The translations under genes and the position numbers were made by a program. Under the pieces are notes generated by a model. It did no database searches. It was given only the letters and a program-made list of their open reading frames with translations, and had not been told where the DNA came from. This document shows positions 8,842 through 10,985 of a stretch of DNA of 64,000 bases, piece by piece. Position 1 is the first letter of the stretch; every line of letters starts with the position of its first letter. This DNA comes from Gammaproteobacteria bacterium (GTDB lineage: Bacteria; Pseudomonadota; Gammaproteobacteria; Steroidobacterales; UBA11654): positions 1 to 64,000 of the forward strand of contig PBDY01000019.1 of NCBI GenBank assembly GCA_002717445.1. Reading direction: 5' to 3'.

Positions 8842-10380
8842 ATGAACTATTTAGTCTTAGCAAGAAAGTGGCGTCCCAAGAGTTTCTCAGAAGTCTCGGG
8901 TCAAGATCACGTTGTAAAGGCCATCCAAAATTCTCTAAAACAGAATAAAGTTCATCACGCTCTATTATTCACAGGCACAAGAGGAGTAGGGAAAACAACG
9001 ATAGCGAGGTTGTTTGCCAAATCACTCAATTGCGATGAGGGGATTACCCCTGAGCCATGCGGCAAATGCGAGTCCTGCGTGTCAATCGATGAAGGAAATT
9101 TTATGGATTTGATCGAAGTTGACGCAGCCTCACAAAGGGGAATAGATGACACGAGAGACCTGCTCGAGAATACGCAATACACGCCCACAGTGGGAAGGTA
9201 CAAGGTTTATTTAATCGATGAGGTGCATCAGCTCACAAAAGAGGCGTTCAATGCTCTTTTGAAAACTCTTGAAGAGCCACCAGAGCACATGAAATTTTTA
9301 CTGGCCACAACAGAAAGTGAAAAGATTCCGATCACTGTCTTGTCCAGGTGTTTAAAGTTTAATTTAAAAAAAATATCCGAAGAGCAGATAGCATCTAGAA
9401 TGAAAGAGATACTCGATGCTGAAAAGATTGAATACGAGGATGGTGCACTATCAATCATCAGTAAGTCTGCCGATGGGAGCATGAGGGATGCATTGAGTTT
9501 ATTGGATCAAGCGCTCGCCTATGAGAATTATAAGCTATCCGAGATCAATGTGATCGACATGCTTGGATTGATTGACAATAAGCATGCTCTCTCAATCGTT
9601 CAATCAATCCTCAGTCAAGATGCAGACACACTCAAAAATCAACTTGAAGAATTGGATTCAAAATATCCTAATTACAATGATGTCCTTGATAGTATTGCGA
9701 GCATCACGCAAGAAATCGCATATCTTCAGGTGCTCGATGCTTCAAAAGTTGCATCAGAACCTGAAATGATTGACTTATCAAACAATCATTCTCCCGAGCT
9801 CATACAATTGATTTATCAGATTGCAATAAACTCAAAACGCGACTTATCGATGGCTCCAAGCGCAAAAGAGGGATTTACGATGGCAGTTCTTAGAATGTAT
9901 GCGTTTCAGTTATCCGAATCACAGCCCGTTATCAATAAACAATCAAATACTGCACAAAAAAAAATTAAAGAATCAGAGCCACTGGTAAATGGCGAGTCAC
10001 AGCAAAGCAGTATTTCATCCAATAATTGGACAAAGGAAGTTGCAAATATGAACCTTAGAGGTGCAGTAAAACAACTTGCTGCAAATTGTTTCTTCGATCG
10101 AATGGATAACGATGTCCTCTATTTAAAAATTCACAGTGAAAACGAACATCAGATGATTGAACGAGCTGTCCAAGGATTAAATGCATACTTAACCAGTCAC
10201 TACAGCGGTATCAAAAAGATGGTCATTCAAATTGAAAAAGAAAATGGAAAGACATTGGCCGGTGAAGCAAAAATACAAAACGAAGAGCAAATCATTATGA
10301 ATAAATCAAGAGCCAGTTCAGACCCAGTGGTTCAAGAGTTTGTTGATCTATTTGACGCAACCATCGAAGAAAGTAAATGA
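8842..10380 (+). CDS. dnaX: DNA polymerase III subunit gamma/tau
   Basis: LARKWRPKSFSEVSGQ, GTRGVGKTTIARLFAKSLNC, Zn motif CGKCESC, DEVHQL. Confidence 0.97.
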   Translation: MNYLVLARKWRPKSFSEVSGQDHVVKAIQNSLKQNKVHHALLFTGTRGVGKTTIARLFAKSLNCDEGITPEPCGKCESCVSIDEGNFMDLIEVDAASQRGIDDTRDLLENTQYTPTVGRYKVYLIDEVHQLTKEAFNALLKTLEEPPEHMKFLLATTESEKIPITVLSRCLKFNLKKISEEQIASRMKEILDAEKIEYEDGALSIISKSADGSMRDALSLLDQALAYENYKLSEINVIDMLGLIDNKHALSIVQSILSQDADTLKNQLEELDSKYPNYNDVLDSIASITQEIAYLQVLDASKVASEPEMIDLSNNHSPELIQLIYQIAINSKRDLSMAPSAKEGFTMAVLRMYAFQLSESQPVINKQSNTAQKKIKESEPLVNGESQQSSISSNNWTKEVANMNLRGAVKQLAANCFFDRMDNDVLYLKIHSENEHQMIERAVQGLNAYLTSHYSGIKKMVIQIEKENGKTLAGEAKIQNEEQIIMNKSRASSDPVVQEFVDLFDATIEESK

Positions 10381-10985
10381 AGCACTTCAGTCCGATTCTA
10401 CAAGACCTTATTAATGCGTTTAAGGGATTGCCTGGTATCGGCGTTAAAAGCGCTCAAAGGATTGTTTTTAACCTGATTCAACACAATCAGGAAAAAGCCT
10501 TATTCCTGTCTGACACAATAAAAAATGCTTTAGAGAATATCAATGAGTGTTCAAATTGCAGAATGTATACAGATTCTGATTTATGTGAAATCTGCAGCGA
10601 TCCTCAAAGAGATTCAGCAATGTTATGTGTCATCGAATCGCCGGCCGATATGATAGCGATCGAAAATTCAATGTCATTTAACGGGAAATACTTTGTCCTC
10701 ATGGGTAAACTCTCTCCACTGGATGGCATTGGCCCTGACCAATTGAAACTGGACATGCTTGAGTCCATCGTAAAAGAGGGGGCCATCAGAGAAATCATTC
10801 TCGCAAATAGCCCAACAATTGAAGGCGAAGCAACAGCCTCATACATACTTGGTCTCATTGAAAATACAGACATAGAGGCGACAAGAATTGCTTACGGTGT
10901 ACCCATGGGTGGTGAGCTTGAATATGTTGATTCCAGTACACTGACACAAGCACTAAACAACCGTTCGTTGGTTTCTAAGAAATAG
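10377..10985 (+). CDS. recR: Recombination mediator RecR
   Basis: LPGIGVKSAQRI, zinc finger CSNCRMYTDSDLCEIC, Toprim domain; ATGA overlap with dnaX. Confidence 0.97.
   Translation: MKHFSPILQDLINAFKGLPGIGVKSAQRIVFNLIQHNQEKALFLSDTIKNALENINECSNCRMYTDSDLCEICSDPQRDSAMLCVIESPADMIAIENSMSFNGKYFVLMGKLSPLDGIGPDQLKLDMLESIVKEGAIREIILANSPTIEGEATASYILGLIENTDIEATRIAYGVPMGGELEYVDSSTLTQALNNRSLVSKK

Follow-up and report, generated by a model that had tools for sequence, protein, structure and literature searches.

In Escherichia coli, the gamma form of DnaX arises by −1 ribosomal frameshifting at an A_AAA_AAG heptamer, which is accompanied by an upstream SD element and a downstream stem-loop. Transcriptional slippage has been described for dnaX of Thermus thermophilus (Larsen et al. 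2000, as described in PMC1088944 and PMC5009743). Opinions differ on whether gamma is important beyond a few model bacteria; a 2012 review held that most bacteria beyond enterics and Thermus are without dnaX frameshift signatures and may not make gamma (PMC3290774). Here, we describe a dnaX gene with a candidate slippage site of the Thermus type. The gene lies in a 64,000-nucleotide stretch of gammaproteobacterial DNA (the window; its genome is referred to as G000), and its features are as follows.

8842..10380, plus strand: dnaX, full-length tau frame, 512 amino acids (TIGR02397, 430.9 bits, E 1.7e-129)
9541..9912, plus strand: domain III (DNA_pol3_gamma3), residues 234-357 (Pfam PF12169, E 1.5e-14)
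9956..9964, plus strand: candidate slippage run (A9) across codons 372-375, conserved intact in all five subclade species
9966..9968, plus strand: TAA closing the −1 frame, reached when the mRNA has gained one A; 375-amino-acid product
9979..10374, plus strand: domain V (DNA_pol3_tau_5, alpha-binding), residues 380-511 (Pfam PF12170, E 3.8e-13)
9986..9988, plus strand: TAA closing the +1 frame, reached after loss of one A or gain of two; 381- to 382-amino-acid product

The dnaX reading frame comprises 512 codons, from the ATG at 8842 to the stop codon that ends at 10380. The first-pass annotation had pointed to an uninterrupted A9 within it, and both sequence and frame were as claimed: codons 372 to 376 read CAA AAA AAA ATT AAA, with codon 372 (CAA) at 9955-9957. 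A −1 shift leads directly into AAT TAA and the +1 frame holds seven sense codons before its stop, matching the product of about 375 residues and the early +1 closure that had been proposed. By computation, one added A yields 375 amino acids ending in QKKN, one lost A yields 381, and two added A's yield 382. The site had also been placed just past domain III; the Pfam matches bear this out and show that the run precedes domain V as well. A9 occupies the short linker between the end of domain III (residue 357) and the start of domain V (residue 380) and therefore separates the part common to tau and gamma from the tau-only part, domain III being the last domain that tau shares with the predicted gamma. 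As in the Thermus-type arrangement, the predicted short product keeps domains I to III and is devoid of the alpha-binding domain V. Two further features of that arrangement are present, namely, at least nine consecutive A's on the dnaX sense strand with tau in the zero frame, and a nearby stop in each shifted frame (TAA at 9966-9968 and TAA at 9986-9988).

Two further observations concern the surroundings of the site. A second long A-run is found inside dnaX (A8 at 9366-9373, codon 175); it also occurs in the congener G004 and is absent from the four sister species of the subclade. Downstream, a gene that is recR-like by sequence extends from 10377 to 10985 and has 4 bases (ATGA) in common with the end of dnaX. 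Translation of slipped transcripts would end approximately 390 to 410 bases 5′ of the recR-like start, and translational coupling may thereby suffer a polar effect.

Conservation was assessed across nine species of the genus with dnaX. Five of them (G000, G002, G003, G005, and G008, the last also present as contig L036) form a subclade with 100/100 support. All five share an identical A9 plus ATT AAA and an intact −1 stop, while the preceding codons and some of those following have diverged, as had been anticipated for a site whose run and adjacent stop outlast the surrounding linker. Retention of the run by relatives extended to eight of the nine genus members and broke down in G004, where the linker holds no A-run of any kind despite the A9-bearing congeners. 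In G001 and G007, the site reads GAA AAA AAA ACA GTA AAA, so that A9 is followed by an immediate stop in the +1 frame (CAG TAA), and G009 carries A9 in a different codon phase, with both shifted frames closed. The dnaX linker of G041 (L008, family f5), a relative of A9 carriers, is also without an A-run; together with G004 (locus L026), it represents a natural loss that can be compared for tau-only replication. An A7 in G010 (L064) is out of position for a homologous site, at 44 codons past domain III; its sequence is TCT AAA AAA AGT GAC, and the −1 frame there reads AAG TGA directly. Locus L038 (PALS01000057.1), titled "Euryarchaeota archaeon isolate SAT38," contains a dnaX that is 79% identical over its full length to the gammaproteobacterial gene of the window and is probably a mislabeled or contaminated bin.

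Conservation of this kind might involve no recoding at all, the run simply following from A-rich codon usage and from a lysine-rich linker (QKKIKKSEP) kept for protein reasons. The peptide [QE]KKIK is indeed conserved across the subclade, and AAA accounts for 67% of Lys codons in G000. Long A-runs were surveyed in a sample of 1.22 Mb of this genome (40% GC), taken in stretches, in which simple ORF calls predicted 1,046 genes (1.05 Mb). Expected numbers came from synonymous codon shuffles within genes, which keep the protein and the codon set of each gene but not the dinucleotides across codons. Against these shuffles, runs of nine or more A's were depleted about 12-fold in the predicted genes (5 observed versus approximately 59 expected). 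All five were A9 and none was longer; shuffle means were 38.4 for runs of nine and 20.6 for runs of ten or more. Runs of 6 to 7 A's were not depleted, and runs of 8 were only slightly so. Selection against slippage thus starts at A9 in G000, with dnaX among the five exceptions; long A-runs are thus costly in this genome, yet dnaX retains one. Selection against slippage-prone long runs has been reported for many bacteria (PMC1088944).

Comparison of G000 with sequence stretches from two sister species gave a median protein identity of 85% and an identity of 44% at fourfold-degenerate sites, which is near saturation. A8 runs were kept in 17 to 18% of orthologues, and the dnaX A9 was kept in both species. 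The other A9 genes of G000 were considered as equally conserved cases and dismissed, as comparison with G008 was possible for just two of them, neither of which has the run there. Depletion of A9 and decay of other runs rule out chance in AT-rich DNA as the source of the dnaX run, and the same two results stand against an origin of the run in codon usage and linker composition.

The run is also found beyond the genus, in counts that include related species and hence do not represent independent events. Among 48 dnaX genes of relatives, which were not selected for a run, 13 A9-A10 runs fall within a 16-codon zone lying 5 to 20 codons past domain III, and only 2 runs of A9 or longer occur outside it in 26,333 codons. 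The recurrent site sits 8 to 14 codons past domain III, and its carriers come from families f1, f5, f6, and f14, with a GC content of 55 to 57% in two of them. When the order was searched with a pattern that takes the domain III end as its anchor, A9 was detected in 10 of 396 genomes, and most of the order is without the A-run by this search. The pattern allowed a gap of 15 to 45 and passed over the subclade of the window, where the gap is 49; a wider gap was used to search the class. In the class search, 15 of 369 sampled genomes of Gammaproteobacteria, from 11 genera, carried the run and a backward-pattern control gave 0; since some DnaX do not match the anchor, the class-wide numbers are minimum values. 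Given G004, G041, and the majority of the order, many relatives would do without the short form or make it in another way.

Applied over the phylum, a looser anchor pointed to family f122, which spans more than 110 genera and which we infer is probably the GTDB family Burkholderiaceae; the DnaX of one member is 57 to 61% identical to named betaproteobacterial DnaX. The run was present in 62 of 121 f122 genomes (backward control, 1 of 121), at locus GC contents of 0.54 to 0.72. In G501, an f122 genome of 66% GC, the dnaX A9 is the sole A-run of at least eight in 255 genes, and in the one f122 genome measured, AAA makes up 28% of Lys codons. Persistence of the run in such backgrounds again speaks against a by-product of A-rich codon usage. 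Another match to the looser pattern, L225 (G879), could not be established as dnaX and was discarded. L205 (G636, family f145) shows an inverted layout at an A10 run: the zero frame stops 12 codons past domain III, and with one additional A a tail of 142 residues resembling the tau C terminus becomes readable.

Because the pattern searches select for the run only, the fate of the shifted frames provides an independent test. Of 16 lineage representatives, 15 had a stop within 8 codons in each shifted frame, whereas the other linker codons in these genes gave an expectation of 5.2 (P of approximately 5e-5). In this set, +1 closure was significant alone and −1 closure was not (P of 0.17 to 0.19). 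At 35 f122 loci, the median distance to a stop was 5 codons in the −1 frame and 1 codon in the +1 frame, compared to a background of 37 and 35 for other codons of the same genes, and both frames were closed within 10 codons at 34 loci versus 2.3 expected. A constraint on the linker peptide does not entail such closing of both shifted frames, and we regard the absence of recoding as very unlikely. Even less credible, in our estimation, is a safety function unconnected to gamma, in which ambush stops have been selected to end accidental slippage quickly beside a run kept by chance; it, too, predicts hidden stops by slippery runs and is in line with the tight closure, and it does not account for a run that is kept, or gained anew, at a single place and purged elsewhere.

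The direction of the shift bears on the mechanism. Among carriers, the start of the run falls in each of the three codon phases, and the frame that holds the nearer stop, −1 or +1, varies. Heterogeneous shift direction among orthologues is a published sign of transcriptional realignment (PMC3711429). The window site does have the layout expected of an E. coli-type programmed −1 ribosomal frameshift, in which transcription is faithful and tandem tRNA-Lys slips on A AAA AAA into AAT TAA: the slippery heptamer is in frame, one sense codon and an adjoining −1 stop follow, and the subclade conserves that stop. Furthermore, the one tRNA-Lys found in G000 (in a search of about 80% of an 84%-complete assembly) has the anticodon UUU, an arrangement that eases ribosomal slippage on AAA in E. 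coli. However, the E. coli heptamer A_AAA_AAG is absent, and A_AAA_AAA is reported to be far less shift-prone than it in that organism (PMC5009743). Seven bases would be enough for ribosomal frameshifting, yet the runs comprise 9 to 10. Moreover, −1 frameshifting predicts a −1 stop alone, whereas G001/G007, f5, f6, and f122 have their immediate stop in the +1 frame, and +1 closure is the significant one.

Stimulatory elements of the ribosomal mechanism were likewise undetected. Folding upheld the first-pass observation that no strong stem-loop lies downstream, as no stable structure was seen at the window site (MFE of −5.8 kcal/mol, z of 0.36), and no conserved SD-like element was found either. 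Such elements, sought 3 to 16 nt upstream of the run, occurred at 0 of 7 genus loci and were nearly absent across three site sets (0/7, 1/17, and 1/35 loci). Mean downstream fold z values reached only −0.5 to −0.75 across locus sets, with a genus mean of −0.75, and downstream structure at A9 sites appears weak at most. A hairpin picked out by eye in some relatives (CCATT...AATGG) was not supported by folding in the window and is absent in G003. Taken together, dual-frame closure, three phases, and shifting stop direction point to RNA polymerase slippage, and we consider ribosomal frameshifting on a faithful transcript unlikely. The initial preference for transcriptional slippage is supported, with the nearest stop lying in either frame and both frames closed in related lineages.

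The run, its position and conservation, dual-frame closure, genome-wide avoidance, and recurrence in other families were all obtained by computation. From these results, A9 is quite probably a selected transcriptional-slippage site of the T. thermophilus dnaX type, and the case that these bacteria would derive long and short DnaX from one gene is strong at the sequence level. Direction-independent closure, variable phase, and the absence of stimulators favor Thermus-type slippage over E. coli-type frameshifting. As to the occurrence and level of slippage and the function of the short form, we infer the following course. RNA polymerase would slip on A9/T9 to give mRNAs with 9, 10, 8, 11, etc., A's. 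Transcripts with 9 (or 9+3n) A's would encode tau, and all other counts would lead to a shifted-frame stop within 1 to 7 codons and a gamma-like protein of 375 to 382 residues. With domains I to III and without the alpha-binding domain V, this form would be able to join clamp loading. Some −1 shifting by ribosomes at the same A AAA AAA may contribute.

Beyond this locus, we think it reasonably likely that a poly-A transcriptional-slippage device by which dnaX yields gamma is widespread among Gammaproteobacteria sensu lato, many f122 genera among them, and has been kept or has re-evolved many times. If so, a mixed long/short DnaX clamp loader would be under selection far beyond enterics and Thermus. 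A selected, dual-closed A9 in many families argues against the view put forward in PMC3290774, and it points to species in which the gamma question can be tested. The literature searched yielded no report of A9 slippage sites in gamma- or betaproteobacterial dnaX, although others may exist. The type of mechanism is already known from Thermus; its breadth outside Thermus, unreported in that literature, was unexpected. An earlier survey of slippage runs excluded sites whose slippage truncates the product (PMC1088944) and the GeneTack survey targeted ORF pairs (PMC3711429), and both would therefore miss such sites.

In comparison with known systems, the window site shares with E. coli and enterobacterial dnaX the gene, the outcome, and the single codon before a −1 stop; it differs in having A9 in place of A6G, in that an SD-like element and a strong stem-loop were undetected, and in the closure of both frames. 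The Chlorobi-type split dnaX of a GeneTack cluster (PMC3711429) also has poly-A at the tau/gamma boundary with inferred slippage, but the slip is required there for the longer product, whereas here the zero frame encodes tau; L205 (G636), in which tau would need the slip, resembles that type in its inverted arrangement. Relative to T. thermophilus dnaX, the host is gammaproteobacterial, the run comes right after domain III, and slippage is predicted from sequence. With T. thermophilus, the window's dnaX has in common an A9 within a single tau frame, nearby stops in both shifted frames, and a short product that contains the clamp-loader domains.
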